Part shown: positions 1 through 39,217 of the stretch, piece by piece
Layout: every line of letters begins with the position of its first letter
How positions within the stretch are numbered: the first letter of the stretch is position 1
Virus record (IMG/VR): IMGVR_UViG_3300017917_001687
Coordinates: 1-64,000 of that record
Source: a virus
Length of the DNA stretch: 64,000 nucleotides
Reading direction: 5' to 3' (one strand)
The notes under the pieces: model-generated
Databases searched by the model: none
What the model saw: only the letters and a program-made list of their open reading frames with translations
What the model was told of the DNA's origin: nothing
Position numbers and translations under genes: made by a program

Positions 1-3000
1 CAAGTGGTACATCAGGAATTTCTGGAATCAGTGGATTATCTGGCACTTCAGGTATAAGCGGTTTATCTGGTACATCAGGAATTAGTGGTTCAAGTGGAAT
101 TTCTGGAATCAGTGGTCGTTCAGGTATTAGCGGTTTGAGCGGATTATCTGGTACATCGGGAACTTCAGGTATCTCTGGTTTAAGTGGCACATCAGGTATT
201 TCAGGTCAAAGTGGTACTTCTGGTATAAGTGGTTTATCTGGAACATCAGGACTTTCTGGTATAAGTGGATTGAGTGGAAACTCGGGAACATCAGGTATTA
301 GTGGATTATCAGGAACCTCTGGAATCAGCGGTACGTCTGGTATCTCCGGTTCAAGTGGAACCTCAGGTATCTCTGGTTTATCAGGTACAAGCGGTATAAG
401 TGGATTAAGTGGAACATCTGGTATCAGTGGTCTGAGTGGTACGTCTGGTCTTTCAGGTACAAGCGGAACATCTGGTATATCGGGATTATCAGGAACTAGT
501 GGAATTTCAGGTTTATCTGGTACAAGTGGAATAAGTGGCACATCAGGAATTAGTGGAACCAGTGGTATATCTGGATTATCAGGTACTTCGGGTATTAGTG
601 GAACTAGTGGATTAAGTGGAACATCAGGACTTTCAGGTCAAAGTGGTACTAGTGGTATAAGTGGATTGTCAGGAACTTCTGGTATCTCAGGATTAAGTGG
701 TCAATCGGGAACTTCAGGAATTAGTGGAATATCAGGACAATCTGGAACATCTGGTATTAGTGGTTTGAGCGGTCAATCAGGTATCTCTGGATTGAGTGGT
801 ACTTCAGGTTTATCTGGTACAAGTGGTTTAAGTGGTACGTCAGGAATTTCTGGATTAAGTGGAAGATCTGGTATCTCAGGACTTTCGGGAACAAGTGGGT
901 TGTCTGGTACTTCGGGTATAAGTGGAACATCTGGTTTGTCAGGAACATCCGGTACTTCAGGTATAAGTGGATTAAGTGGACAATCTGGTACATCGGGTAT
1001 CTCTGGATTAAGTGGACAATCTGGTACATCGGGTATCTCTGGTACTTCAGGTATCTCTGGATTGAGTGGACAATCTGGTACATCAGGAATTAGTGGTTTA
1101 TCTGGTCAATCAGGAACATCAGGACTTTCGGGTCAATCTGGTACTAGTGGTATTAGTGGAATCTCAGGAATTAGTGGTATAAGCGGATTATCTGGTACTA
1201 GTGGAATAAGTGGAACTTCAGGAACATCGGGAATATCAGGTCAAAGCGGTACTAGTGGTTTATCTGGTACATCAGGTACTTCTGGTATAAGTGGATTGTC
1301 AGGAACTTCAGGTTTATCTGGCACATCTGGATTAAGTGGAACTTCTGGTACGTCAGGTATTAGTGGTTTGAGTGGACAATCTGGAATTAGCGGATTATCG
1401 GGGACTTCTGGTATAAGCGGAACTTCTGGTATTTCAGGTTCAAGTGGTACATCAGGAATTTCTGGAATAAGTGGAATTAGTGGTCGTTCAGGTATAAGTG
1501 GATTAAGTGGAAACTCAGGTACTTCGGGTATCTCTGGTTTATCAGGAACTTCGGGATTGTCTGGAAATAGTGGAATATCAGGACAATCTGGTCTTTCAGG
1601 TACCAGTGGAACTAGTGGTGTTTCAGGATTATCAGGACAATCTGGAACATCAGGAATCTCAGGACTTTCGGGTATAAGTGGATTAAGTGGTACATCTGGT
1701 CTTTCGGGAACATCTGGTACCTCTGGATTATCAGGTCAAAGTGGTACATCAGGAATAAGTGGATTATCTGGAAACTCGGGTTTAAGTGGAACATCAGGTA
1801 TCTCTGGATTTTCAGGTACTTCAGGTATTAGTGGTACATCCGGTATAAGTGGTTTATCAGGTCAATCAGGAACTTCAGGTATATCAGGATTAAGTGGTAC
1901 GTCTGGTGTATCAGGTATCTCTGGTCTTTCAGGTACTAGTGGATTATCGGGTTCAAGCGGAACTTCTGGTCTTTCGGGAACAAGTGGAACTTCTGGTATA
2001 AGTGGTTTATCAGGAACTTCGGGATTGTCTGGAAATAGTGGAATATCAGGACAATCTGGTCTTTCAGGACAATCTGGAACATCTGGTATCTCAGGACTTT
2101 CGGGAATAAGTGGGTTGTCTGGTACTTCAGGTACATCTGGTCTTTCGGGAACATCTGGTACAAGTGGATTATCTGGTCAATCTGGAACATCAGGTATTAG
2201 TGGTTTAAGTGGAGTATCAGGACAATCTGGTACTTCAGGTATATCGGGATTATCTGGTACATCAGGAATCTCTGGATTGAGTGGTAACTCAGGAATAAGT
2301 GGATTGTCAGGAACTTCAGGTTTATCTGGTACAAGTGGATTGTCAGGAACTTCAGGTTTATCTGGTACAAGTGGGTTGAGTGGAATATCAGGACTTTCGG
2401 GTCAATCTGGAACTTCAGGAGTAAGTGGTTTATCAGGACAATCTGGTACATCAGGTATTAGTGGTTTAAGTGGTACTAGTGGAATAAGTGGATTATCTGG
2501 AACCAGTGGAATTAGTGGTCGTTCAGGTATTTCTGGACTAAGTGGTACATCAGGTATTTCTGGGTTATCAGGAACTTCGGGATTGTCTGGAACCAGTGGA
2601 TTATCAGGAATAAGTGGATTATCAGGTCAATCTGGCACATCAGGAATCTCAGGACTTTCAGGTACTTCAGGTACATCTGGTCTTTCGGGAACAAGTGGAA
2701 CATCGGGTATTAGTGGTCAATCGGGTACTTCAGGTATTAGTGGGTTATCTGGTACTTCAGGTATATCGGGTACGTCAGGAACCTCTGGATTATCAGGTCA
2801 AAGTGGAACATCGGGTATTTCTGGAATTAGTGGACTTTCTGGTACAAGTGGTACTTCTGGTATCTCGGGACAATCTGGATCCTCAGGTATCTCTGGTTTA
2901 TCAGGAACATCCGGAACTTCAGGTATATCAGGATTAAGTGGTGTTAGTGGAACATCGGGTATTTCAGGACAATCTGGTACTTCTGGTCTTTCAGGTTCAA

Positions 3001-5051
3001 GTGGAACATCAGGTATTTCTGGATTAAGTGGAACCTCAGGTACATCAGGATTGTCTGGAAATAGTGGAACATCAGGATTATCAGGAACATCTGGAACATC
3101 GGGATTATCAGGAACTAGTGGAACATCAGGTTTATCAGGTCAAAGCGGTACTTCTGGTATATCGGGATTATCAGGAACTTCGGGAATCTCGGGCGTGTCA
3201 GGTATTAGTGGACGTTCTGGTATCAGTGGTCTTGTGGGTGAATCGGGATTAAGTGGAAGAAGTGGTATTTCAGGATTATCTGGTACTTCGGGAACTTCAG
3301 GTATTTCTGGATTAAGTGGAACCTCAGGTACATCAGGAATCAGTGGTTTATCTGGTACTAGTGGTACATCAGGTATTAGTGGAACTTCAGGATTATCTGG
3401 TACTTCGGGAACTTCAGGTATTTCTGGATTATCTGGTTCTTCGGGATTGTCTGGAACTAGTGGTTTATCAGGTACGAGTGGAATATCGGGATTAAGTGGT
3501 ACTTCTGGCATCTCAGGATTATCTGGTAATAGTGGAACATCGGGAATTAGTGGAATATCAGGACAATCTGGAACTTCAGGTATAAGTGGATTAAGTGGTC
3601 GTTCTGGTATCTCTGGTATAAATGGTACTAACGGAACCAACGGAACCAACGGAGCATTATCATTAACGTGGGATCTGAATACATCTTCATCGTCTAGTCC
3701 AAGTACTGGAGAATTTAACACATATAACGGATCAACGTATGGTACATTAACATTTAGTTTAATTCAAAAATTAGTAATTAATGAAACATCAATACAGGGT
3801 ATTGCCACATCATTATTAGATACGATAAGTACGGCATTATCTAATAATCAAAAAGTATACCTTCAGATTACTGAATCTGATGACAACACAACTACGAGTT
3901 CTTTTCAAGTAACCGCCATTAGTTTATCCTCTGGTGTTTACACTCTTGACGTTACTGCATTATATGCAAATGGTACGATGACAAACGGAGATCGTTATGT
4001 AATCTCTACTAGTATAGGTGGATTATCTGGAACTAGCGGATTGTCAGGAACAGCGGGTAGTGCAGGTAGTGCGGGTACATCAGGTATCAGTGGATTGTCA
4101 GGAACAGCGGGTAGTGCGGGTACATCAGGTATCAGTGGATTAAGTGGACAATCTGGAACTTCAGGATTAAGTGGAACATCTGGCACATCAGGTATTAGTG
4201 GTGTATCAGGAAGAAGTGGAATTTCAGGTTTAAGTGGAATTTCAGGTTTAAGTGGAATTTCAGGTTTAAGTGGAATTTTACCGGCAGGTGTGAGCGGTTC
4301 GGTACCATATCACAATGGAACAAGCTGGGTTGTTAACAGTTTAAACTTATTCCATAATGGTTCTGTTGTTGGTGTTGGATTAAGTGCCCCAACCGCAGAA
4401 TTACATGTTAGAGGTTCGGGTTCAACAAGTGGATCAACCACATTAAGAATTGAAAATAGTGGGGCAACACCATCATTAGTGGTTAGAGATGATGGTAATG
4501 TTGGTATCGGTACAGCATCACCAACATCAAAATTATTAGTGTCGGGAACAACAAACGTAGTAAGTATTGTTGGTAGTGGAAGTACATTACCATTATTCAC
4601 GGTTCAAGGGTCGTTAGGTGAGTTATTTTCTGTTACAGATAGTTTAACCGGTTCGTTATTTAGTGTTAACGATATATCAGGATTACCAATATTAGAAGTT
4701 TTCTCTGATAACACAATAACCGCAGGTGATTACGCGGCACCTGCATTGATTACAACAGATAAACTAACGATAGCGGCAAGTGGAACCACATATGATTTAT
4801 TCACAATACCATCTACTTACGACACTGCATTTGTTGATTACACAGTTAGAAACTCTGCAGGCACAAGAGCGGGTCAAATCGCAGCAACATGGAGTGGCAC
4901 AACAATTGTTTTCAGTGAAACAACGACAACCGATATTGGTAGTACAACACCTGTTTCGGTGTTTGTGAGAATGTCAGGATCAACCGCAATAGTATCAACA
5001 TCGGCAACAACAACTAACTGGGTGGTTAAAACAATTTTAAGGGGTATTTAA
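1..5051 (+). CDS. Giant collagen-like tail fibre protein (5' end outside window)
   Basis: The reading frame is open from the first base (first complete codon at base 3), so the gene begins upstream; the visible part is about 1682 residues. Bases 3-3620 encode about 400 tandem Gly-X-Ser triplets, X mostly Thr, Ile, Leu or Gln with some Asn, Arg, Val. They are collagen-like in Gly periodicity but lack Pro. A short Gly-Thr-Asn run (3621-3653) leads into a Thr/Ser-rich globular segment (3654-4016). A second Gly-X-Ser/Ala stretch follows (4017-4278), then a C-terminal beta-rich tip. The tip includes [12 protein letters not shown], a motif common in phage fibre heads. No S74 endosialidase-type chaperone domain is seen at the C-terminus. 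Long, thin trimeric fibre shafts are typical for Gly-X-Y phage proteins; adhesion to the host is inferred from this and from the adhesin genes that follow. Confidence 0.88.
3..3653 (+). repeat. Gly-X-Ser coding tandem repeat (9-base unit, degenerate)
   Basis: The DNA is built from 9-base units encoding Gly-X-Ser, with TCA, TCT, TCG, AGT and AGC serine codons and GGA/GGT/GGC/GGG glycine codons intermixed. The peptide periodicity is almost perfect while the DNA copies are heavily scrambled in synonymous positions, so selection acts on the peptide. Longer near-identical DNA blocks recur, such as the pair around 970-1065, showing local duplications. A rare interruption reads Gly-Leu-Val-Gly-Glu-Ser near 3230-3245. 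Confidence 0.9.
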
Positions 5052-5055
5052 TAAT

Positions 5056-5769
5056 ATGGCATTTAATTATTCACCAAAAATAATAACAGATGGTTTAGTA
5101 TTGTATTTAGATGCGGCCAATACTAAAAGTTACCCAACTACTGGAACAACTTGGAGTGATATTTCAAGGGTGGGTAATAACTGTAGTTTAACTAATGGTC
5201 CAATATTTAATAGCCAAAATGGAGGAAGTATTGTGTTTGATGGTACCGATGATTATGGTTTAATGAATAACGTCATAAATCTATCCAATAGATTTACTAT
5301 AAATGCTTGGGTTAGATTAAATTCTACCACACCACAACCTACAAACTTTTCTAATAGGGTAATATTAATATCTAATTGTTATCCTTATCAAGCAAACAAA
5401 GGATTCTTAATGTCGGCATCTGGGAACAATGGATCTGATTTTTGGATTTCACTAGGTGCCGACCAAAAATTTGCAGTTTCAACAACTGGTTATACTTCAC
5501 CAAATACTAACATCATGTTAACCGCTACAGTTAATGCTGGAGATAGTAATATAAAATTATTTTTCAATGGACAAGAGGTTTCTTACAACACCAGAACTGA
5601 TGGAAACATTAGTTTAGCATATGATGTGGGCAGTACACAAATTGGTTTTAGATCGACTGGTGATATTATGAACGGAAGATTATATTCGATGCAGTTATAT
5701 AATCGAGCACTATCAGATTTAGAAGTATTACAAAACTATAACACGACAAGAACAAGATTCGGATTATAA
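5056..5769 (+). CDS. LamG/concanavalin A-like adhesin, copy 1
   Basis: This 237-residue protein has the signature of phage LamG-like (concanavalin A-like jelly-roll) proteins. It has an N-terminal ITDGLVLYLDAANTKSY, a middle IVFDGTDDY strand, the INAWVRL strand, and a C-terminal YNRALSDLEVLQNYN helix region. Such domains bind carbohydrate or protein ligands and are frequent in tail fibres. It starts 5 bases after the collagen-like fibre stop with no SD sequence, in one transcription unit with it. It is the first of three related genes (with 5774-6445 and 6700-7473), probably created by duplication. Exact ligand unknown. Confidence 0.82.
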   Translation: MAFNYSPKIITDGLVLYLDAANTKSYPTTGTTWSDISRVGNNCSLTNGPIFNSQNGGSIVFDGTDDYGLMNNVINLSNRFTINAWVRLNSTTPQPTNFSNRVILISNCYPYQANKGFLMSASGNNGSDFWISLGADQKFAVSTTGYTSPNTNIMLTATVNAGDSNIKLFFNGQEVSYNTRTDGNISLAYDVGSTQIGFRSTGDIMNGRLYSMQLYNRALSDLEVLQNYNTTRTRFGL

Positions 5770-5773
5770 AATT

Positions 5774-6445
5774 ATGTCAGCAACAATTGCACCAAATATG
5801 ATAACAGATGGTCTAATATTCTACTTAGACGCAGGAAATACCAAAAGTTATATTGGTACTGGAACAACATGGAATGATTTAGGTAGTACTAATTTAAAAG
5901 GAACCTTAACCAATGGTCCAACATTTAGTAGTGCTAGTGGTGGTACCATTACATTTGATGGTACAAATGATTATGTATCAATGTCTTCACTTTCTCTCGT
6001 AATAACAGGTGGTACTTTTATTGTATGGGTAAGAAGAAATGGTATTCAGGTTAATTTTACAGGATTACTATATAATAGAGTTAGTTTAGGTACAGGTTTA
6101 TCTTTAGCTGCTGATATGATTAATTATAGTTGGAATAATGAACCTAATACTTATAATTGGGTGAGTAACCTAACCATACCAAATTTACAATTTTCTATGT
6201 GTGCAATATCAGTGAATAGTACATCTGCAGTTGCCTACTTATGCCAATCCTCAGGAATTTCGTCAGCAACTAATAATGTAAGTCACGGAAGTGCAACATT
6301 AGAAACGTTGTGGGTTGGTTACGATGGTATTGACCCCAGATATTTTAAGGGTAATATTGGTCAAGCATTTATATATAATAGGGATTTATCATCCACAGAA
6401 ATAGAACAAATTTTTAGAGTAACAAAAATAAGATATGGATTATAA
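5774..6445 (+). CDS. LamG/concanavalin A-like adhesin, copy 2
   Basis: This 223-residue paralogue of the preceding protein shares ITDGLIFYLDAGNTKSY at the N-terminus, ITFDGTNDYVSM in the middle and YNRDLSSTEIEQIF followed by RYGL at the C-terminus. The central strands differ strongly from copy 1, as expected for diverging ligand-binding loops. It begins 5 bases after copy 1 and its last codons overlap the start of the next small gene (tATGgattataa). Role inferred as a fibre-associated receptor-binding or adhesion subunit. Confidence 0.82.
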   Translation: MSATIAPNMITDGLIFYLDAGNTKSYIGTGTTWNDLGSTNLKGTLTNGPTFSSASGGTITFDGTNDYVSMSSLSLVITGGTFIVWVRRNGIQVNFTGLLYNRVSLGTGLSLAADMINYSWNNEPNTYNWVSNLTIPNLQFSMCAISVNSTSAVAYLCQSSGISSATNNVSHGSATLETLWVGYDGIDPRYFKGNIGQAFIYNRDLSSTEIEQIFRVTKIRYGL

Positions 6446-6698
6446 CAATAGAGAATATATGATTTTTAGCATAACGGAGTTATCTAAAATCGATTTTAGT
6501 CAAGTACTGGAAACATCATCAGAAACTGTTAGAAAATCAGTTGATGGTACAAAAACATTTGTAAAATGGGTTGGCGAAACCATTCCCTCAAGCGTAGAAA
6601 GTTTAATAACAAAAGAGGGTCCTTACACTCACGATGAGATTATTGTAATTTTATCAACATCTGAGTGGATTGATCCTAATATGTTTATGGGAGGTTAA
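6435..6698 (+). CDS. Small hypothetical protein between LamG genes
   Basis: This 87-residue protein is not recognised. It overlaps the end of LamG copy 2 by 11 bases and stops one base before the next ATG, so it is embedded in the adhesin operon and probably translationally coupled. An internal Met at residue 9 (start of MIFSITEL) is an alternative start. It has no transmembrane segment and no obvious motif. The C-terminal part (YTHDEIIVILSTSEW) looks globular and mixed alpha/beta. Position suggests a fibre-assembly or accessory protein, but nothing in the sequence proves it. Confidence 0.6.
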   Translation: MDYNNREYMIFSITELSKIDFSQVLETSSETVRKSVDGTKTFVKWVGETIPSSVESLITKEGPYTHDEIIVILSTSEWIDPNMFMGG

Positions 6699-6699
6699 T

Positions 6700-7473
6700 A
6701 TGAGTAGTGTTGGAAATTGGAGGGGTCCGGATATAGTAAAAGATGGGTTGGTGTTCTATTTTAATGCAGCATCCCCCAATTCATTTTATTCCCCCTCATC
6801 AAGCACATTGGTAAAAAATATTGTGGATTTTTCTACCACTTCTTCATTAACCGGATCTTTAGTAAATGGTGCTTCATTTAGTAGTGGATTTGGTGGTACT
6901 TTTAATTTTGATGGTGTGGATGATCATATTGCTTTAGGTACATTTCCATCTATTAGTTTTGCAAATGGTATAACAATAGATGTTGTGGTTAGGTTTACAG
7001 CACTTGGAGGTGGTGGTTGGGAAAGGTTCATAGATTTAACATCACAAACAGGTACTTTAATTCAGTTTGGACGACATTCTGTTTTTTCAAATGTGTTTTT
7101 TTCTTGTAAGAATATCACAGGGGGCGATGCAGCACTAAATCGACGCTTTCAAAGTACTGGAACAACCATAACAACCAATCAAATAACAATGTATTCGGTC
7201 ACCCTACCCGCTGGTACACCAGGTGATGTTACCCCAGGTTGTGTACTTTATAGAAACGGGGCGGTGATAAATGGTCAATTAGCAACCGCCAACGAAAACC
7301 CCAGATTACCATCAACACAATCCAGAGAGATTGGATATATTGCAAGATCACCATTTGCAGGTAATTCTTTTTTAAATGGATCTGTATACCAATTAAAGAT
7401 ATATAATAGACAATTAACTGCCACGGAAGTTCTTAAAAACTACAACGCAATAAAAGGTATATTCGGTATATAG
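6700..7473 (+). CDS. LamG/concanavalin A-like adhesin, copy 3
   Basis: This 257-residue product starts at the ATG at 6700, directly after the upstream stop; an in-frame ATG 30 bases earlier lies inside the preceding gene and is less likely. It keeps the family landmarks: VKDGLVFYFNAAS at the N-terminus, TFNFDGVDDHIALG in the middle and YNRQLTATEVLKNYNAI then FGI at the end. It is more divergent than copies 1 and 2. Its middle carries a longer loop region. It completes a tandem array of three jelly-roll adhesins behind the collagen-like fibre. Confidence 0.8.
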   Translation: MSSVGNWRGPDIVKDGLVFYFNAASPNSFYSPSSSTLVKNIVDFSTTSSLTGSLVNGASFSSGFGGTFNFDGVDDHIALGTFPSISFANGITIDVVVRFTALGGGGWERFIDLTSQTGTLIQFGRHSVFSNVFFSCKNITGGDAALNRRFQSTGTTITTNQITMYSVTLPAGTPGDVTPGCVLYRNGAVINGQLATANENPRLPSTQSREIGYIARSPFAGNSFLNGSVYQLKIYNRQLTATEVLKNYNAIKGIFGI

Positions 7474-7477
7474 TTAA

Positions 7478-7485
7478 TATTTATA
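7478..7485 (+). promoter_or_regulatory. Putative late promoter TATTTATA
   Basis: The box TATTTATA (context AATATTTATAAT) lies 22 bases before the ATG at 7508 in an intergenic gap. It is one of 14 such boxes found before genes in this window, mostly structural ones. Confidence 0.5.
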
Positions 7486-7507
7486 ATAAAACAAAAATAA
7501 AATTAAT

Positions 7508-8323
7508 ATGCCAAACGAATTGAAAATAAATAATGGTGCCGAGGTTATTGGTAGTATTTCATTGGGTAGTGGTACAACAACAAATGCCGTTATACAAAGA
7601 AGACAGACACCAGCAGTATCATCAGGTAGTGGTGCAACAATATACTCAACTATTTTTGCCGCTGGTAATGGAATAGGAAACACATCCCCATATACCATGA
7701 GAGATGATCATGGTGCAACCATAGAATTAAGAGCGGGTACTCCAACATCAGATCAGTATGGTGGTGGTATTTTTATTAGTGCAAACGGTCATACAAGTGC
7801 ATTGGGTAATGGTAACGCTATTGTATTTAGGAATCGTACAGGTGTTGATACATACACAGAACGCATGAGGATTGCGAAAGATGGTAAAGTTGGTATAAAC
7901 AGTAGTTCCCCAAACGCACAACTTACAGTTCAAACTAGTGTGGGTGGGCTTGGGTTAAATGTGACAGATGCAACTGGTAGTGATCTTAATGTGACCCCTG
8001 GTGTTTCTTCAGGTGTTGTTAGGGTAGGACCAAGTGTGGGTCAAATGGCATTTTACGCCAATGGTTCCGAAGCCATGCGTATTGATACTGATCTACAGGT
8101 GGGTATAGGTGTTACCACCATAGGTGCAAGGCTTCATGTAAATGGATCTATAAGGGTAGATAATCAAGCATATGTTAGTGTTCTTGGAACAAATACCGGT
8201 ACTCCAACCCAATATTATGGTAGTGATGGTTCTATTTATTTAAGCGACCCCGCATATTGGTTAAAAATATTCTTAGATGATAGTAGTACTAATTATTACA
8301 TACCCGTTTATATATCAACATAA
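7508..8323 (+). CDS. Tail fibre / virion surface protein with fibre-head repeats
   Basis: This 271-residue, Gly/Ser/Thr-rich protein has two copies of a fibre motif. One is TERMRIAKDGKVGINSSSP, the other SEAMRIDTDLQVGIGVTTIG, each followed by a strand ending in LTV or LHVNGSIRV. The VGI motif with flanking strands also occurs in the C-terminal tip of the collagen-like fibre, so both belong to the same beta-rich fibre architecture. It has its own upstream TATTTATA box. It ends the adhesin block; the next gene is a glycosyltransferase. No S74 autoprotease domain is visible. Fibre role is well supported by motif and context; receptor unknown. Confidence 0.75.
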   Translation: MPNELKINNGAEVIGSISLGSGTTTNAVIQRRQTPAVSSGSGATIYSTIFAAGNGIGNTSPYTMRDDHGATIELRAGTPTSDQYGGGIFISANGHTSALGNGNAIVFRNRTGVDTYTERMRIAKDGKVGINSSSPNAQLTVQTSVGGLGLNVTDATGSDLNVTPGVSSGVVRVGPSVGQMAFYANGSEAMRIDTDLQVGIGVTTIGARLHVNGSIRVDNQAYVSVLGTNTGTPTQYYGSDGSIYLSDPAYWLKIFLDDSSTNYYIPVYIST

Positions 8324-8338
8324 CCAACATAAATTTTG

Positions 8339-8346
8339 TATATTTG
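8339..8346 (+). promoter_or_regulatory. Possible Bacteroidota-type -7 box (TATATTTG)
   Basis: TATATTTG fits the Bacteroidota housekeeping -7 consensus TAnnTTTG and lies in the 70-base gap before the glycan block. No good -33 TTTG is seen at the usual distance, so the call is tentative. If real, the glycan genes would be read from a host-type promoter rather than the late box. Confidence 0.3.
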
Positions 8347-8393
8347 GTTTACTATTGTTTTTTTTTAGGTTATTTTTTTAACCAAAAAAGATA

Positions 8394-9665
8394 ATGGATA
8401 CAACTGTTGTGATTCATAGTGAATCAAACGAAAAATTATTAACCATATTAAAAAAAATGGATAAATTTAGGATTCAAAGAAACCTATCCATTTTTGTACA
8501 TTCAAAAAATTATTTTCCAGAAGACGATTGTAAAAAATACGTTGTAAATTACAAAACGTATGCCATTTTCCCAACAGAAAAAAACACAATAGATTCTATC
8601 GTTGAGATGCTTTTAAGGGTAAAAACCAAAAACGTATTAATTGTTAATGAAGATTCACCAGATTTTTCTTTTGAAAAGTGGGACAATAAAAACCACAACT
8701 ATCTGTTTGGTGATTTACAAGATATTTTAAAACTAAAATTTGACACCAAATATGAGGGTTTATACAATTTCGTTATAGATTTAAAATCACAATACAATAA
8801 AACAAAATACGAAACCGATTTATCTACCAAAGACGGACTAAGATATTCAAACAAAATAAAAAATCCATTATTTGATGAAAACATAATTTACATTGATGGT
8901 GGTTTGGGTGATCATATTATGGCACTTCCATTATTGGAGAGTATGGGTGGTAATTTATATATTTCATGTAAGTATCCATTTGTTTTTAATCACATAAAAA
9001 ATAAAGGTTTTATCGATTGGAACGATGAGTTGTTTGGTGGTTATAACAGGTTTGTTTACGAATATGGATCAAGAAATAACTCCAAAACAATTATCGATGC
9101 GTTTTTTGAGTTATATGGTAAAAAAAGAACAGAAAAAGACATTCTAAAATACAATGGTGAATCAACAATTGTACAAGAATTATTAAATAAAAAATTGGCA
9201 TTAATTTGTACAAGTGCCGCCAAAATACAAAACCAAGACTCAAATAAAGATTGGAGAGATATTAGGTGGTTCAAACTTATTCATGAATTAAAAAAAATGG
9301 GTTATTTTGTTGTACAAGTGGGTACCACAAAAGACAATCAAATACCAAATGTGGATTACAAATTTTTAGATAAACCATTATCTGAATTAAAATTTGTTAT
9401 TGAAAACTCATCATTATGGATTAGTGTTGATACTTTTTTTCACCACTTTGCATCTGCAATAAAACCAAACGTTGGTATTTGTTTAACTCCTTTTTATAAT
9501 GACCACGCTAAACATCCCGGAGTAACATACATTGAAAAAGATTGTGGTAAAAATTTCTCGGACAGAAAATGGTGGCTGGACTTACAACAACCAGAAAGAA
9601 AAGAATGTATGGATTTAATAATGGTTGATGATGTTTTAAAAAACATAGAAAAAAGATATGAATAA
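8394..9665 (+). CDS. GT9-like (heptosyltransferase-fold) glycosyltransferase
   Basis: This 423-residue protein has an N-terminal region of about 165 residues without a recognised domain, followed by a GT-B fold resembling family 9 (ADP-heptose-type) transferases. The landmarks are IYIDGGLGDHIMALPLLESM (start of the first Rossmann half) and DWRDIRWFKLIHELKKMGY leading to FVVQVGTTKD (second half). The later segment LWISVDTFFHHFASAI matches the GT9 nucleotide-sugar-site SxDTxxxHxA pattern. It overlaps the next glycosyltransferase by 8 bases. The acceptor is not shown; the position after fibre genes suggests virion glycan, but modification of host surface glycan or DNA cannot be excluded. Confidence 0.72.
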   Translation: MDTTVVIHSESNEKLLTILKKMDKFRIQRNLSIFVHSKNYFPEDDCKKYVVNYKTYAIFPTEKNTIDSIVEMLLRVKTKNVLIVNEDSPDFSFEKWDNKNHNYLFGDLQDILKLKFDTKYEGLYNFVIDLKSQYNKTKYETDLSTKDGLRYSNKIKNPLFDENIIYIDGGLGDHIMALPLLESMGGNLYISCKYPFVFNHIKNKGFIDWNDELFGGYNRFVYEYGSRNNSKTIIDAFFELYGKKRTEKDILKYNGESTIVQELLNKKLALICTSAAKIQNQDSNKDWRDIRWFKLIHELKKMGYFVVQVGTTKDNQIPNVDYKFLDKPLSELKFVIENSSLWISVDTFFHHFASAIKPNVGICLTPFYNDHAKHPGVTYIEKDCGKNFSDRKWWLDLQQPERKECMDLIMVDDVLKNIEKRYE

Positions 9666-10650
9666 AATAAAGGTTAAAATCCATTCGAATGATTTTGATA
9701 TAGATAATTGTTCTAATTGGAGATCCAATTTACAATATAATGGGGAAATTGAAGATGTGGAAATAACTTTCTACAAATCACATGTTTATTATTTTGAAGA
9801 TGATTTAAATTACGATGTGATTGTATTTATTAGACCACTACTAGGTTATGCCGAATACATCAAAGCACTAAAAAACGCAGGAAAAATAGTGATTGTGGAT
9901 TTTGACGATCCACTTCCAATGGTTTTTGATAAATCACTAGTGAAAGAAAATATAATACAAACATTATCAATATTTGATAGTTGTGATTTAGTTACAACAA
10001 CAAATGAAAGTATGAAAACATATTTTTATTACCATACATATAAAGATAAAATTGAGATATTACCCAATGTGATAAATAAAAAATTTGTTAATAAGAATAA
10101 AAAAAACAACTCTGATAAAATTATTTTAGGTTGGTTTGGGAATGGTGGTCACATAAGCTCTTTACAACAGATTAATGATATTATCTTAAAAATTTTAAAT
10201 GAGAATGAAAACGTTTTTTTAAACTTATATTCAGATAATAATAATATTTTTGAGTTATTTAATCACCCAAAAACGAATAAAATAAACTATGTTTATAATT
10301 TTGAAATTTTTCAAGATAGTTTGAATGATGTTGATATAAATTTAGCACCACTAGATGAAAATTATTTTAATTTAAATAAATCAAACATAAGAATCATTTT
10401 ACCCGGATATAAAGGTATACCTTCAGTTGCAACCAATTTTGGTGAATATAAAAAAATAGGAAAGGATAACATACTTTTATGTGATTCTGGTGAAGATTGG
10501 TATAATAATTTAATGTTGTTAATAAATGATTCAAACTTAAGAAAAAACATGGGATACAACATTCAAAAATATGTTGAGGAGTATTTTTCTTTTGAAAAAT
10601 GGTCAACGATTAAAAGTAAAATGTTTAAAAATCTAATAAACAAAAACTAA
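9658..10650 (+). CDS. GT-B glycosyltransferase (GT4-like)
   Basis: This 330-residue product fits a GT-B glycosyltransferase. An N-terminal half carries VIVDFDDPLPMVFD and DLVTTTNESMKTYF. A linker ILPNVINKKF sits where GT4 enzymes have the N/HGVD-type turn. A C-terminal half has IILGWFGNGGHISSLQQI and a weak donor-binding segment around YKGIPSVATNFGEYKKIG. The final helix region EEYFSFEKWSTIKSKM is typical of GT4 ends. The canonical E-x7-E donor motif is poorly conserved, so donor and linkage are unknown. It overlaps the upstream GT9-like gene by 8 bases and lies 4 bases before the giant multidomain gene. Confidence 0.68.
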   Translation: MNKIKVKIHSNDFDIDNCSNWRSNLQYNGEIEDVEITFYKSHVYYFEDDLNYDVIVFIRPLLGYAEYIKALKNAGKIVIVDFDDPLPMVFDKSLVKENIIQTLSIFDSCDLVTTTNESMKTYFYYHTYKDKIEILPNVINKKFVNKNKKNNSDKIILGWFGNGGHISSLQQINDIILKILNENENVFLNLYSDNNNIFELFNHPKTNKINYVYNFEIFQDSLNDVDINLAPLDENYFNLNKSNIRIILPGYKGIPSVATNFGEYKKIGKDNILLCDSGEDWYNNLMLLINDSNLRKNMGYNIQKYVEEYFSFEKWSTIKSKMFKNLINKN

Positions 10651-10654
10651 TAAT

Positions 10655-13600
10655 ATGGTAATAGTACAGCTGGGTTCAAACAAGGGTAATGATAAATTAA
10701 CCGAATACATTAAAAATAACAACATAAATTTAGAACTGGGTTTGTTTGTTGAAGCAATTCCATTCCATATAGATGAATTAAAAGAGTGTTATAAAGATTA
10801 TCCTAATGCGGTGATAGAAAATAATGCAATAAAACTACCACGGGATGAAAAAACTGAAATGGTTATTTATTACCACTTAGATGACGGACCAAAATATGAG
10901 GTTGCATCTTTTGATAAGAACCATATATTAAAACACTATACAACCGATAATATCGAAAGTATTAAGGTACCATCAATGACCTTGGAAGAAATTTTGGATA
11001 AACACAACATAACAAAAATAGATTGGTTATTGATTGATGTTGAAGGTTTGGATGCCGAAATAGTTGAAACATTTAATTGGTCAAAATACGATATTGATAG
11101 AGTTGATGTTGAACATATACATTGGGGTATAAAAAGAGATTATTTATTCCAAAAGTTTTACGATATGGGGTATAAACATGTAGTGGCGAACGATGATAGA
11201 TATGATGTTGCGTTTGAAAAAATTATTGTTAATGATCAAAAAATAGAACATTTTTATCAAAACATTGGGGAGGATTGGTTTGGACATTCCAATTTTTATA
11301 GTGAAATTGTAAATAAATTCCCTGATGACTCACATTTTGTGGAGGTAGGTGTATGGAAAGGTAGGGGTGCTGCTTATATGGCCACAGAAATTATTAATTC
11401 TGGTAAAAAAATAAAATTTGATTGTGTGGATAATTGGGAGTATTCTGATTTACAAAAGGACATTCCTGAAAATTTATATGAAAATTTATATGAAACATTT
11501 TTAGAAAATGTAAAACCTGTTAAACATATGATTAACCCAATTAAGTTATTATCTCATGATGCATCTAAATTATATGAAAACAATTCTTTAGATTTTGTCT
11601 TTATTGATGCGGCACACGATTATGAAAATGTTAAAAGAGACATTGAATCTTGGTTACCAAAAATTAAGGTTGGTGGTATCTTAGCTGGTCACGATTATGA
11701 GACATCAATTGATGGTGTTAAAAGGGCTGTTGATGAAGTTTTTAAAAATAAAGAAATAACAAATAAAGAAAATTGTTGGATATACGAAAAAAAAAATAAT
11801 ATGAAAAATTATAAAGTAATAGACACCTTTATTTTTGGTGGAGAACTAGAAATTCTAAAAATGAGATTGGATTATTTATATGATTCAGTTGATTATTTTG
11901 TTTTTTCTGAAGCAAATAAAACACATACTGGTGAACCAAAAGAACTAACTTTTTTATCAAACATTGAAATGTTTGAAAGTTATAAGGATAAGATTCATTA
12001 TGTGATTTATGAACCAGACATTACAAATTTAAATCTTAAGGTTACTCCAGAAGATATTTTTAAATCTGATCTATGGAAATTAGAAAGAACTCAAAGAAAT
12101 CAAGTTCATAGTAAAGTTATGGAATTATCCGATCAATCAACTATGATTTTACATTCCGATTGTGATGAATTTCCTGATAAAACAAAATTTGACGAATTAA
12201 GAGAAATGACCAAAGATTTATTTTTAGAGGTCGTATCTCTTGAACAACCAACATACTATTACTCCCCTATAAATTTATTAGAAATGAGTTGGTATGGAAC
12301 GGTTGCTTTCAATCACCAAACATTAATTAATTTATCGGATTATTTTTCTGTTAGAGAAAATAGATTTCAATCAAAACACCTTGAAAATGCTGGTTGGCAC
12401 TTTTCATTTTTTGCAACACCAGAAAAAATTAAACATAAAATACAGACGTATACTCACCAAGAATATAATACACCAGAAATTGTTAATATAGAAACGATTA
12501 AAAATAAAATTTATAATGGTTTAGATGTATTAAATAGATCTGATGTTAAAATTAACAAATTAAGTGAAATCAGCTCAGAATTCCCGATGGAATTTCATAG
12601 ACATGAATTATTTTTTAAAAATACATTTGATAGGGGTTATCTAAAACCGCAACAGGTTTATAGAAAAAACATATCGATGCAAATACCATTAGAAATTGAA
12701 AATCTTCAATTAACTGTTACAAATCATAATCCTAAAGTTATTGTTGAAATTGGTACTGCCAATGGGGGTACACTCGCAAGATGGTTAGAAATACCATCAT
12801 CAGAAACAATAATTTCGATTGATTACCCAGTAGGTATACATGGTGGTCAAGGATTTGAAGAAAGAACTTATGTAATATCTGATGCTGTAGAACAATCAAA
12901 TTTGACTAAAAAAGAATTTTATGCGGTAAATGGTAATAGTAAAGATCCATATTTAATTAATCGTGTTAACGAATTATTAAACGGAAGAAAAATTGACTTC
13001 TTATTCATAGATGGTGATCACACGTATGAAGGTGTAAAAGGTGATTTTGAAATTTACAAACAATTTTTATCGGATGATGCTATTGTTGGATTTCACGATA
13101 TTATCAATAGTGAATACCATATTCAACATAATTGTTATGTATCAAAGTTTTGGAACGAACTAAAAGAAGAATACGAGTGTAAAGAATTTATTCATACTGA
13201 ACATATTGATTTAAAGATGTTACCACATTTGGGACAAACAAAAAAAGATGGTGGATTTGGTGGTATCGGTTTAATTGAATATAGAAAAAAAAAAGATTTA
13301 ACGGATAATTTATCAATCATTGTCCCAATTTATGGAAATGTGGACGACACCATAAATAATTTAAATATAACATTATCACACTCAAAAAATGTTGATGATG
13401 TTATATTGTATTCAAATGGTACTGATGATGAAGGTGTTAATAAATTAAAAAATTATGCATCGTTTGATAGTAGAATTAAATTATTCACTATTGACAAACC
13501 AATTGGGTTTGTAAAAGCGGTAAACGAATCATTAAAGAAAACAAAGAATGAATTTATTTTATGTTTAAACTCCGATGCTCATTTGTTTGGTGACTGGGAG

Positions 13601-16600
13601 AATAGATTACTACCTCTTTTTAAGAACGACAAGTATGGTGTTGTTGGACCAGTTATGGCACGTGATTTCATTCTTGGTTGTTGTTTTGGTTTTAAAAAAT
13701 CGGTAATAAACAAGATTGGTATGTTAGATGAGGGGTTTGGTTTGGGGTATGAGGATGATGTTGAGTACTCGGAAAGAGTTAAAAATTGTGGGTATGAGTT
13801 AGGGTATTGTGAATATAAAGACGACTTTGGTTGGAATCCCATGATTAATTTTCCAATTTACCACAAACAGGGTGACTCATTTAACAAAATAAGTAACAAC
13901 ATAATTGAAGATCTAGTAAACGTAAACTCAGAAAAAAGACTAAAATTTAAAACATTACAAAATGTAACGTTATTAAAAAATTTAAATTATGAAGACGTAT
14001 TACCATATTTAGAGACCAATGATAATTTAATAGTAATTAATAAATCAGGATCCGAATTTGAAAAAATTAGAAACGATGAAAATATAATTAGAAAATGTAG
14101 AGTGTTTGAAATAACCTCAAGTATGGATATAAACCAAGTTATTGATTCACTTACAAAAGGAAAATCTTATGAAATAGTTGATTATAATTACGATGAGAAA
14201 ATATCTTTGGTGGTTCCCATTTTTAATAATGTTGAAATTGCAATTGATAATATCAACACAACTCTACAATCTTCAAAAAGAATAAATGAAGTTATTTTAT
14301 TTTCAAATGGAACTAGTGATGAAGGTAATTCTTTACTAACGGACTTTGCAAATTCAAATAAAAATATTAAACTTTATTTCTCTAAAAACCCAATTGGTTT
14401 TGTTAAAGCAGTAAATGAAAGTTTCAAATTATGCACCAATGAATTAATTTTGTGTTTGAATAGTGATGCTAATCTATATTATGATTGGGAAGATAAACTA
14501 ATGATTCTATTAAAAGATAGTTCAAATGGTTTAATTGGTCCTGTTGCTGTTAATTGTAATACAATATTAGGTTGTTGTTTTATAATAAGAAAAAGTTTAT
14601 TAAATAAAATTGGAATGTTAAATGAAGGACTTGGAATGGGGTATTTTGATGATGCTGATTTAAGTTTTAGGGTTACGAATAACGGATTAAATTTAGGTTA
14701 TCACCATACAATAAACTCATGGGATAATAACACAATGGTAATTGATTTTCCTTTTAATCACTCACAAGGATTAAGTTTTTCCCAATTAAATATAGAATCC
14801 ACCAATAGTGAATTAAAAAGAAATGAAAAAAAATTAAAAAATTATTTTACATCTAATAAAGTTTTAATTTTAAAGGATTTAACACAAGATAAAATAAAAT
14901 CAATTATAGATGAGAATGGTGTCTACTTGGTTGTGAATAATAGCGGAGAAGAGTTTGAAAAAATTAGATATGATGAAGATATCGTATCAAAAACACATAT
15001 TTTTGAATGTACAAATGAAATGAATATTGATGTGTTGATAGATTCTCTCACAAAAAATAAAGAAAAATTTATTATAGACGATACTAACTACGAATCAATC
15101 AAAAGTGAAACAGATAAATTAATAATGAGGTATGATATAATTAACAGTTTAATTAAAAAAAATAATTATAAATCATATTTGGAAATAGGTGTAAGAATAC
15201 CTGACAATTGTTTTGATTTGATTGAATGTGAAACTAAACACGGGGTAGACCCTATGGTTGAAGTGGATTATCCTGTTACATTTAAATTAACCTCTGATGA
15301 TTTTTTTGATCAGAATACAAACACATATGATATAATTTTTATTGATGGATTACATTTAGATTATCAAGTAGAAAAAGATATCATCAATAGTTTAAAAATT
15401 TTAAATGACGGAGGAACCATTGTTTTACACGATTGTAATCCACCAGATGTTTATCACCAGAGAGAAAATTATTATGACATTACAACGCCAGCAAATTGGG
15501 GTTGGACAGGAACTGTATGGAAAGCCGTTGTTAAAGTTAAGTCTGAAATTGATAATATAGATCTCTGTGTTGTGGATACGGATTATGGGGTTGGTATATT
15601 ACAAAAATCAAATAATTCAAATAAAATAATTAATGACAATCCAAATTATTCTTTTGAAATCTTTGAACAAAATAAAAAATATTATTTAAATTTAATTTCT
15701 AGATTAGAGTTTTATCTAAAGTATATTTACGAACCCATAGAATTAAAAAAAAAATTAACTTGGTTAGCGAAGTATGATGATTATTCATCTATGGGTATTT
15801 TATCACAAAAAGTTTTAGAAAATCTTAAAAACACTGATATATCATGTAAAGAGATTATTGGTAAAACAGAAACAGATAACAAACTTATCTTAGATTCAAT
15901 TAAAAAATCAATTAATCATGAGTTGGGTATAATGTTTGCGTACCCTGACATGATAAACGAGCTAAACACCTTTAAAACTAAAGTAATTTATACGGGTGTT
16001 GATACAACAGGTGGTATTCCAAACTTTGCGGAAAATTGTAATAAGGCAGATTTTTTATTAACACCTTCAAATACATCAAAAGTTATGATGGAAAATCTTG
16101 GTGTAAAAAAACCAATTTTTGTTTTTCCACATGGTGTTGACACTGATTTATTTAAATTTAAAGAAAGAAAAAAATCGGATGTGTTTAAATTCTTATATGT
16201 TGGGGAGTGTTCTGACAGAAAAGGTATATTTTCTTTATTATCTGCATTTACATATCTTTTTACTAATAATTTAAATGTTGAATTACACATAAAATCAAAT
16301 ACTGCAATGTTATTCTATGGTTCAGATAAAATAAACGAAATTATAAACACACATAAAAACATTATTTGGCGCGTGAGTAACGAAGGTCACGAAAAGGTGA
16401 TTGAATTATATGACGAATGTAATGCATATGTTTACCCATCAAGAGCAGATACTTTTGGAATGACCTTAATTGAAGCAATGTCTTGTGGTTTACCGATAAT
16501 ATCAACAAACAACCCGGGTTCAACCGAATTAATTAAGGGTCGTTACTTTGAGGTTTCAAGTAAAAATGTTCCAGTTCAAAACCATCCATGGATGTTAGGT

Positions 16601-17518
16601 GAATGGGGTGAACCAAGTGTCACTGAGTTAATAAGACAAATGAAATATGTTTATAATAATTACACCCAAATAGTTGGGTCTAACATTTTACCAAATAATT
16701 CAAAACATATTCAGGAAAACTACTCATGGGATAAGGTTGTTTTGAAGTTTGAAAAAGAAATATTACCAAACCTTAAAAAAAATAGAAAAGTAATTACATT
16801 ATTAACATCTTTTAACAGACCACACCACATAAAAAATGTAATAAACTCACTAAAAGACATTAGAGAAAATGATGTGGAAAATGTTATATATGTTGTGGAA
16901 AACTCAAACCAAGAAAATAAAGAAGAAATTTTAAACATAATCAAACAAAATATTGATGATTTATTCATGATACATGTTTCTGAATTTAATTTAGGGCAGA
17001 GAGGTGCGTTGTTACAACTATTAGAGGATATTAATGTTGATGATTATGATTATATCCAATTTACCGACCAAGACAACATATTCAACGAACCAATAAGTAC
17101 GTTTTGTGATATTTTAGATGAAAACCCAGATATGTTCTTCACAACAGGATATATGAGTAAAGAACACCCTGAACTTGGTTGGAGAAAAACTCGGTTTGGT
17201 AATCTTTGTGAAAAAAGGACTTTACGAGCAGGACACATGGTAATGAGAATTAGTGATTTAAAATCATTGTTTCCAATACATTTAGACTCACAATATGGTA
17301 AAGAACACAACTCAACGTGGAATGCGGGGTTAGACTGGGAATTATCTTGTTGGAATGCAAAATCACCAGGTAGAAGATTTGCTGGTAATATTGCTTTGTG
17401 TGTTCCAGGTGGTGTGTTACACAAGGGTATTGATAGTACAATGCATGAGTGGAATGTTGAAGAATATGAATATAAATTAGAAGAATTGATTAATTTAAGA
17501 AATAAAACCAACCATTAA
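10655..17518 (+). CDS. Giant nine-domain methyltransferase-glycosyltransferase protein
   Basis: One uninterrupted 2287-residue frame appears to contain nine enzyme domains. (1) FkbM-like SAM methyltransferase, about 1-170, with WLLIDVEGLDAEIV. (2) Class I methyltransferase, 205-375, with FVEVGVWKGRGA and FIDAAHDYENV. (3) GT17-like transferase, 386-650, with VIDTFIFGGELEIL, HSDCDEFPD and AGWHFSFF. (4) CmcI/Methyltransf_24-like, 675-880, with VEIGTANGGT and FLFIDGDHTYEGV. (5) GT2, 886-1085, with SIIVPIYGN, NSDAH and YEDDVEYSERV. (6) GT2, 1183-1385, a duplicate of (5) with NSDAN and YFDDADLSFRV. (7) Methyltransferase, 1490-1660, with YLEIGVRI and IIFIDGLHLDY. (8) GT4, 1750-2040, with YVGECSDRKGIFSLL and FGMTLIEAMSCGLPII. 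(9) A second type of GT2, 2045-2287, with LLTSFNRPHHI and FTDQDN. Boundaries are estimates. No signal peptide or membrane helix is seen, so a cytoplasmic role in building a methylated glycan is inferred. Confidence 0.85.
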   Translation: MVIVQLGSNKGNDKLTEYIKNNNINLELGLFVEAIPFHIDELKECYKDYPNAVIENNAIKLPRDEKTEMVIYYHLDDGPKYEVASFDKNHILKHYTTDNIESIKVPSMTLEEILDKHNITKIDWLLIDVEGLDAEIVETFNWSKYDIDRVDVEHIHWGIKRDYLFQKFYDMGYKHVVANDDRYDVAFEKIIVNDQKIEHFYQNIGEDWFGHSNFYSEIVNKFPDDSHFVEVGVWKGRGAAYMATEIINSGKKIKFDCVDNWEYSDLQKDIPENLYENLYETFLENVKPVKHMINPIKLLSHDASKLYENNSLDFVFIDAAHDYENVKRDIESWLPKIKVGGILAGHDYETSIDGVKRAVDEVFKNKEITNKENCWIYEKKNNMKNYKVIDTFIFGGELEILKMRLDYLYDSVDYFVFSEANKTHTGEPKELTFLSNIEMFESYKDKIHYVIYEPDITNLNLKVTPEDIFKSDLWKLERTQRNQVHSKVMELSDQSTMILHSDCDEFPDKTKFDELREMTKDLFLEVVSLEQPTYYYSPINLLEMSWYGTVAFNHQTLINLSDYFSVRENRFQSKHLENAGWHFSFFATPEKIKHKIQTYTHQEYNTPEIVNIETIKNKIYNGLDVLNRSDVKINKLSEISSEFPMEFHRHELFFKNTFDRGYLKPQQVYRKNISMQIPLEIENLQLTVTNHNPKVIVEIGTANGGTLARWLEIPSSETIISIDYPVGIHGGQGFEERTYVISDAVEQSNLTKKEFYAVNGNSKDPYLINRVNELLNGRKIDFLFIDGDHTYEGVKGDFEIYKQFLSDDAIVGFHDIINSEYHIQHNCYVSKFWNELKEEYECKEFIHTEHIDLKMLPHLGQTKKDGGFGGIGLIEYRKKKDLTDNLSIIVPIYGNVDDTINNLNITLSHSKNVDDVILYSNGTDDEGVNKLKNYASFDSRIKLFTIDKPIGFVKAVNESLKKTKNEFILCLNSDAHLFGDWENRLLPLFKNDKYGVVGPVMARDFILGCCFGFKKSVINKIGMLDEGFGLGYEDDVEYSERVKNCGYELGYCEYKDDFGWNPMINFPIYHKQGDSFNKISNNIIEDLVNVNSEKRLKFKTLQNVTLLKNLNYEDVLPYLETNDNLIVINKSGSEFEKIRNDENIIRKCRVFEITSSMDINQVIDSLTKGKSYEIVDYNYDEKISLVVPIFNNVEIAIDNINTTLQSSKRINEVILFSNGTSDEGNSLLTDFANSNKNIKLYFSKNPIGFVKAVNESFKLCTNELILCLNSDANLYYDWEDKLMILLKDSSNGLIGPVAVNCNTILGCCFIIRKSLLNKIGMLNEGLGMGYFDDADLSFRVTNNGLNLGYHHTINSWDNNTMVIDFPFNHSQGLSFSQLNIESTNSELKRNEKKLKNYFTSNKVLILKDLTQDKIKSIIDENGVYLVVNNSGEEFEKIRYDEDIVSKTHIFECTNEMNIDVLIDSLTKNKEKFIIDDTNYESIKSETDKLIMRYDIINSLIKKNNYKSYLEIGVRIPDNCFDLIECETKHGVDPMVEVDYPVTFKLTSDDFFDQNTNTYDIIFIDGLHLDYQVEKDIINSLKILNDGGTIVLHDCNPPDVYHQRENYYDITTPANWGWTGTVWKAVVKVKSEIDNIDLCVVDTDYGVGILQKSNNSNKIINDNPNYSFEIFEQNKKYYLNLISRLEFYLKYIYEPIELKKKLTWLAKYDDYSSMGILSQKVLENLKNTDISCKEIIGKTETDNKLILDSIKKSINHELGIMFAYPDMINELNTFKTKVIYTGVDTTGGIPNFAENCNKADFLLTPSNTSKVMMENLGVKKPIFVFPHGVDTDLFKFKERKKSDVFKFLYVGECSDRKGIFSLLSAFTYLFTNNLNVELHIKSNTAMLFYGSDKINEIINTHKNIIWRVSNEGHEKVIELYDECNAYVYPSRADTFGMTLIEAMSCGLPIISTNNPGSTELIKGRYFEVSSKNVPVQNHPWMLGEWGEPSVTELIRQMKYVYNNYTQIVGSNILPNNSKHIQENYSWDKVVLKFEKEILPNLKKNRKVITLLTSFNRPHHIKNVINSLKDIRENDVENVIYVVENSNQENKEEILNIIKQNIDDLFMIHVSEFNLGQRGALLQLLEDINVDDYDYIQFTDQDNIFNEPISTFCDILDENPDMFFTTGYMSKEHPELGWRKTRFGNLCEKRTLRAGHMVMRISDLKSLFPIHLDSQYGKEHNSTWNAGLDWELSCWNAKSPGRRFAGNIALCVPGGVLHKGIDSTMHEWNVEEYEYKLEELINLRNKTNH

Positions 17519-38891: not shown

Positions 38892-39217
38892 TGAGTAGAC
38901 AATATTTTAATAGATACGAGTTTTTTATTGATGATGATAGTTTTAGTATCGTTCCGGGTATTGAAATACCAATCAAAACAACAGATAAATACCAGTTTTT
39001 TAAAAGGGGTAAAGACAGGTTGGATAAAATGTCACAACAATATTATGGAACACCTGTTTTTGGTTGGTTAATATTGCAAGCGAATCCACAAGCGGGTAGT
39101 TTAGAATTTGAAATACCTGATAATTATGTTTTAAGGATTCCATTTCCATTAATCGTGTCTTTACAAGATTACAAAAGAAATGTAGAATTGTATAAGTTAT
39201 ATTATGGAGAACAATAA
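38891..39217 (+). CDS. Baseplate wedge protein, gp53/LysM-like
   Basis: This 108-residue product is small beside T4 gp53 (196) but has the core: RGKDRLDKMSQQYYGTPVFG followed by WLILQANPQAGS. That is the LysM-like fold pattern of gp53 and related baseplate proteins (YG-x-P-x-x-WLI-x-x-x-N). LysM folds here serve structural contacts between wedge and hub. It starts on the last base of the preceding stop and overlaps the following giant gene by 14 bases, indicating tight coupling with both giant neighbours. Confidence 0.75.
   Translation: MSRQYFNRYEFFIDDDSFSIVPGIEIPIKTTDKYQFFKRGKDRLDKMSQQYYGTPVFGWLILQANPQAGSLEFEIPDNYVLRIPFPLIVSLQDYKRNVELYKLYYGEQ

Follow-up and report, generated by a model that had tools for sequence, protein, structure and literature searches.

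The window analysed here is 64 kb (64,000 nucleotides) of the virus record IMGVR_UViG_3300017917_001687, a 74-kb record that is itself incomplete. On its plus strand, which also carries the neighbouring genes located below at 3-10650, positions 10655-17518 form a single reading frame of 2287 amino acids that runs from ATG to stop with 0 internal stops. A preliminary description had reported this frame and listed in it four methyltransferase-type and five glycosyltransferase-type domains. The protein was divided into nine slices, each scored against the curated gathering cut-offs of Pfam, and 9/9 passed, confirming the families as listed. From the N- to the C-terminus the order is FkbM, Methyltransf_24 (MT24a), GT17, CmcI/MT24, GT2a, GT2b, MT24b, GT4 and GT2c.

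The FkbM methyltransferase slice (10655-11254) scored 47.8 bits against a cut-off of 22.7 and contains the signature LLIDVEG. The overlapping MT24a slice (11240-11803) reached 68.9 bits against 26.3, with EVGVWKG..FIDAAHDY..GGILAGHD in its translation, and matches at 79% the end of a separate gene in a relative (L002:6811-8130). GT17 (11804-12640) scored highest, with 96.0 bits against 26, and its HSDCDEFPD holds a DxD motif. The CmcI/Methyltransf_24 slice (12617-13300) gave 47.3 and 35.7 bits against cut-offs of 26.3 and 23.2. GT2a (13292-14179; 46.6 bits against 23.3) and GT2b (14177-15094; 39.9 bits) share the signatures LNSDA and DD and are 46% identical across 292 residues; the pair is an apparent tandem duplication. 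MT24b (15086-15754) scored 35.8 bits against 26.3, its match spanning profile positions 54-105 only. The GT4 slice (15722-16774) matched Glycos_transf_1 at 76.1 bits against 26.4 and reads PSRADTFGM..EA, and GT2c (16757-17515) scored 28.7 bits against 23.3, the cores of its FTDQDN and GLDWE signatures being invariant across the aligned relatives. All five glycosyltransferase domains combine donor-site residues with profile matches over the cut-off, and the glycine loop for S-adenosylmethionine (SAM) is readable in FkbM, MT24a and CmcI/MT24. A predicted model of residues 1175-2287 matched GT4-type and GT-A-type folds. Compared with L002, differences at third codon positions are in excess in every domain compared, which indicates purifying selection on the domains.

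About 18 distinct loci were obtained by searching with the long protein, the GT9 family of its neighbour (see below) and the GT4-GT2c part, and the domain order is identical in all relatives mapped. The shortest version is GT2c alone (L009, L010 and L016), followed by GT4-GT2c (L011 and L013), MT24b-GT4-GT2c (L015 and L024; split in L004) and GT2-GT4-GT2c (L006, L008 and L012). Longer versions have GT17-CmcI-GT2-GT4-GT2c (L003, L005 and L019, and also L022, L023 and L030, which are cut by the contig edge) or this set plus MT24b (L002, and L033, again cut by the contig edge). The window gene, which adds FkbM-MT24a at the N-terminus and a second GT2, is the longest of the series. GT2c, the invariant C-terminal domain, is common to all versions. 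No outer domain is present where an inner one is missing: 0 violations were counted in 15 loci compared to 3.4 expected (p~0.002, uncorrected for shared ancestry). To judge from these maps, the 2287-residue protein belongs to a nested family of poly-glycosyltransferase (poly-GT) genes of uncultured myovirus-like contigs. The homologues keep the domain order in nested shorter versions, and an enzyme with all nine domains was not found in the 50,697 phage records searched. Parsimony on the GT4-GT2c tree requires at least 4 changes for GT17-CmcI, 5 for GT2 and 3 for MT24b. As each module must have been gained or lost at least 3-5 times, the gene appears to be modular, not steadily extended one way, and accretion as a direction was dropped, as this tree cannot tell gains from losses. 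Cellular homologues of GT4-GT2c and GT9 were not confirmed in genome contigs by short-pattern searches, which distant ones may escape. Two huge-phage loci first met by MT24/GT17 similarity (L035 and L036) contain no open reading frame (ORF) longer than 900 aa and were set aside.

The long gene lies at the end of a block of structural and glycosyltransferase genes. The block begins with a collagen-like tail-fibre gene (3-5051; PHROG tail fibre), which is truncated by the contig start, open from base 3 and has its first TTG at 135. It encodes 435 Gly-X-Y triplets with Ser at Y in 423 and Pro in 0. Three LamG/ConA-like tail protein genes follow (5056-5769, with a Laminin_G_3 match, 5774-6445 and 6670-7473), then a tail-fibre tip-like gene (7508-8323), a gene for a GT9-type glycosyltransferase of 423 aa (8394-9665) and a 330-aa glycosyltransferase gene of phrog_7162 (9658-10650), which is fused to GT9 in L004 and L015 and to MT24 in L002. 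The GT9 and phrog_7162 genes overlap, the long gene begins 4 bases past the preceding stop and all run in the same direction, a layout typical of an operon. The same neighbours recur elsewhere. A search with GT9 only, which is independent of the long gene, found 14 loci; in 13/13 contigs that continue downstream the last domain is GT2c, and 12/13 loci with upstream sequence have a (Gly-X-Ser) collagen-like fibre gene there. Conversely, a GT9-type gene precedes the poly-GT gene wherever upstream sequence exists. The window also encodes tail sheath, tube, baseplate, a DnaB-type helicase and ribonucleotide reductase, and its source is therefore, by gene content, a myovirus-like phage. The nearest isolates are Mel-JY01 by tail sheath (33% only) and a Salinibacter phage by DNA polymerase (24%), both too distant to point to a host. 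The tail region also has two very long ORFs, 34062-38891 (1609 aa) and 39204-45026 (1940 aa).

The join between MT24a and GT17 deserves separate consideration. A run of 10 A at 11787-11796 connects residues 1-382 to 383-2287, and the junction (11787-11803) includes an internal ATG (M383). One A more or fewer, i.e. eleven or nine, ends the frame immediately, and the nine-domain chain at this point therefore depends on one assembly. No second assembly of the junction pattern was found among viral contigs. By comparison, the joins within the seven-domain part, 383-2287, recur in independent contigs. The single chain of the preliminary description is thus better supported for that part, while its join to the first two domains hangs on the A10 run. 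In L002, MT24a ends a separate gene with TAA, followed after one codon by the same-frame ATG of the GT17 gene; the window reads through where L002 has the TAA, and the L002-type start corresponds to M383. The two look like a before-and-after pair for gene fusion. Alternatively, there could be two genes, with FkbM-MT24a a separate protein, the A10 run an assembly error or slippage site, and the long enzyme a seven-domain protein from M383. Besides the L002 arrangement, this is favoured by the ATGA overlap that one A fewer would create in the window and by L019, where the upstream methyltransferase genes stay separate. The frame is nevertheless open as assembled, and in the viral contigs L040/L041 one chain of 999 aa carries a homologue of FkbM (50%) and a GT17-like stretch, which shows, as far as domain matches can, that joining of the FkbM/GT17 type occurs elsewhere. 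Although stretches of 8-10 A occur close to several domain junctions and are found again in relatives, synonymous-codon shuffles contain just as many; lysine-rich linkers therefore explain the runs, slippage is unneeded as an explanation, and programmed slippage at the linkers was rejected. On balance we regard two genes as a minority possibility that deserves to be kept in view; it concerns the chain only and is compatible with any function. Beyond the 999-aa chain, L041:1726-10940 encodes several multidomain glycan-type proteins, namely FkbM with a GT17-like stretch and DUF6445, GT2-MT24, and FkbM with radical SAM/SPASM.

The predicted model of the GT9 protein has a pLDDT (predicted local distance difference test) of 86, and its first Foldseek matches are heptosyltransferases. 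Ranked by E-value WaaC/WaaF come first, and by template modelling (TM) score TibC is highest, with 0.42-0.45 (at 5.6-6.9 Å) compared to 0.27-0.34 for WaaC/WaaF. A sequence search of the PDB with this protein gave no match, leaving the fold comparison alone informative. Against PF01075 (cut-off 22) the window gene scores 18.8 bits, below the threshold, and its counterparts in L004 (28.6) and L015 (24.9) lie above. An invariant GGxGD motif includes D173, an Asp that may be catalytic to judge from the motif. The N-terminal ~160 residues (8394-8870) form an extra alpha/beta domain that has no Pfam match and whose start resembles GT2 enzymes, and in L003:1487-4127 the GT9 gene is tandemly duplicated. 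In L002 four genes lie between the fibre and GT9 genes, and the same four occur in L005/L018. In L002 three of the four are homologues of HldE kinase (6e-34), a heptose adenylyltransferase (4e-25) and a capsule phosphatase (4e-27), and these ADP-heptose-type genes would supply activated heptose. The collagen-like fibre, the GT9 gene and the relatives' heptose genes suggest a substrate and a donor. The preliminary description overlooked these gene partners, and also that the N-terminal fusion is the vulnerable part of the chain.

We therefore propose, with slightly better than even confidence, that the cassette at 8394-17518 is a virion-glycosylation machine, in which O-glycosylation of the fibre is primed by GT9 and the long enzyme extends and methylates the glycan. 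The nine domains in one frame, the nested homologues and the near-constant neighbours are read from sequence, and from them we infer activity, acceptor and sugars. The GT9 product would attach the first sugar, probably heptose, to Ser (or Thr) of the (Gly-X-Ser)n fibre, a step modelled on the O-heptosylation of autotransporters by TibC. GT2c, common to every version, would add the second sugar, and GT4, GT2 and GT17 would lengthen the chain. The methyltransferase domains would O-methylate residues along it, with the N-terminal FkbM/MT24a likely serving as caps. With all enzymes on a single chain, their ratio would stay constant and they would remain near one another on a fibre that offers hundreds of sites. 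Possible roles of the glycan are to stabilise the collagen-like helix, which lacks proline, to mask the fibre or to change its binding. As modules are gained, lost, duplicated or fused, the glycan would differ between phages.

Several observations weigh against this proposal. The acceptor is assigned from the genes nearby, and insertions are common in tail-fibre loci; L004 lacks an upstream Gly-X-Ser fibre. The GT9 protein, to judge from its sequence, is not a TibC family member, because it fails the family model with no TIGR04414 match and the four-Cys iron finger is absent; its conserved cysteines are at 363, 384 and, nearly so, 405, compared to Cys339/342/358/370 of the TibC finger. Heptose genes were found in two relatives only, and a CTP_transf_like gene was not found in the incomplete record. 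In the long protein, MT24b lacks a canonical glycine loop, the degenerate loop reading EIGVRIPDN, and confidence in the 1175-2287 model is modest (pLDDT 73).

Alternatively, the enzymes could alter a host-cell polysaccharide such as O-antigen, capsule or a lipid-linked glycan, e.g. to block superinfection. Pathways of this kind often contain GT2, GT4, GT17 and FkbM domains, and L003 holds acyltransferase and sugar dehydratase genes. However, no clear transmembrane segment was found in the 2287-residue protein, nearly all relatives have the cassette among virion structural genes and next to fibre genes, and TibC-type enzymes modify protein, which makes this target unlikely. Less probable still is another virion protein (the LamG proteins, tail tube or capsid) as the acceptor: mycobacteriophage capsids and tail tubes are reported to be glycosylated and three LamG genes separate fibre and GT9 in the window, but LamG genes are not at this place in all relatives and the Gly-X-Ser fibre nearly always is. 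Hypermodification of phage DNA is very improbable. Some phage glycosyltransferases do act on DNA by glycosylating it (cited in PMC12619734), but no thymidylate-synthase-family gene was found in the incomplete record, the FkbM/CmcI-type O-methyltransferases and heptose genes fit poorly, and the cassette is linked to fibre genes, not DNA-modification genes.

Fibre O-glycosylation also allows a more specific and doubtful version, in which the line is colinear and module-wise: each domain added on the N-terminal side, where modules come and go, would be one step of a heptose-primed, methylated oligosaccharide borne hundreds of times along the fibre, and domain order would predict glycan sequence. 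Modular polyketide synthases offer the analogy for order predicting product. The layout had earlier been likened to an assembly line; a colinear order is likelier given the nested shorter homologues, and ordered action on one oligosaccharide is a proposal as before. If fibre O-glycosylation is correct, some phages carry their own O-glycosylation line for tail-fibre protein, and in their naturally occurring enzymes, which range from one domain to nine, domain number and order could be checked against the glycan produced. It would account for how a collagen-like fibre without proline is kept stable or shielded, provide compact tools for glycoprotein synthesis and reveal fibre glycans as a hidden layer in how phages meet hosts.

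Unrelated phages show a similar theme. The Microcystis phage isolate Mel-JY01 encodes a 1226-aa protein (WWT39291.1) with GT4, a methyltransferase-like stretch and a C-terminal TIGR04414 O-heptosyltransferase domain (317 bits against a cut-off of 200), adjoining a structural gene. This entry (L034:4750-8430, PP395634.1) is deposited as 'methyltransferase FkbM', and Pfam gives no FkbM match. In the huge phage LR756501.1 (735 kb; L038:3116-11083) a GT4-TibC fusion and a Gly-X-Ser fibre gene are 3.7 kb apart. Like the window, both have fused glycosyltransferases near structural genes, but the domain order is different, a true TibC domain is on the same chain and there is no full-length homology to the window protein. 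By their domain content these phages support a theme of glycosyltransferase plus protein heptosyltransferase. The 636-kb huge phage LR756504.1 (L039:9983-11149) also encodes a TIGR04414 O-heptosyltransferase.

The preliminary description knew of no phage enzyme of this composition, and in none of the 50,697 phage records searched did one place cover 80% of the protein; the kind, however, is already known. A064R of the chlorovirus PBCV-1 is a GT-GT-MT (MT, methyltransferase) chain shown in vitro to build and methylate one glycan (PMC9614988). Similar to A064R, a viral single chain that builds and methylates a virion-glycan end, the window protein has at least two glycosyltransferase domains and a methyltransferase domain on one viral chain. 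A064R has three domains and 638 aa, belongs to a eukaryotic virus and acts on a capsid N-glycan with proven activity, whereas here nine domains are found in a phage and the function is proposed. WsaE of Geobacillus stearothermophilus, an MT-GT-GT chain, also builds and methylates one glycan (PMC2943079); it is a soluble chain with a capping N-terminal methyltransferase and two glycosyltransferases, but has three domains and makes a bacterial S-layer glycan on a lipid carrier. The O-heptosyltransferases TibC/Aah of autotransporters act on protein (PMC4358343). The GT9 neighbour resembles them in its predicted heptosyltransferase-like fold and, as proposed, a repetitive Ser-bearing protein acceptor, and differs in the family match and iron finger discussed above and in its N-terminal domain. 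Che8 gp110 and Corndog gp38 of mycobacteriophages are glycosyltransferases required for virion glycosylation (PMC12363180); they are likened here by description and glycosylate capsids. Mimivirus L230 glycosylates collagen-like proteins, and collagen of the animal Riftia is stabilised by glycosylation on threonine (PMC10141479). No paper joining phage tail fibre, collagen-like, glycosylation and glycosyltransferase was found in the literature searched, which included few subscription papers. The novel points of the present case are how large the protein is, that its family is nested, and its association with both a priming gene of GT9/heptose type and a phage fibre of collagen-like sequence.
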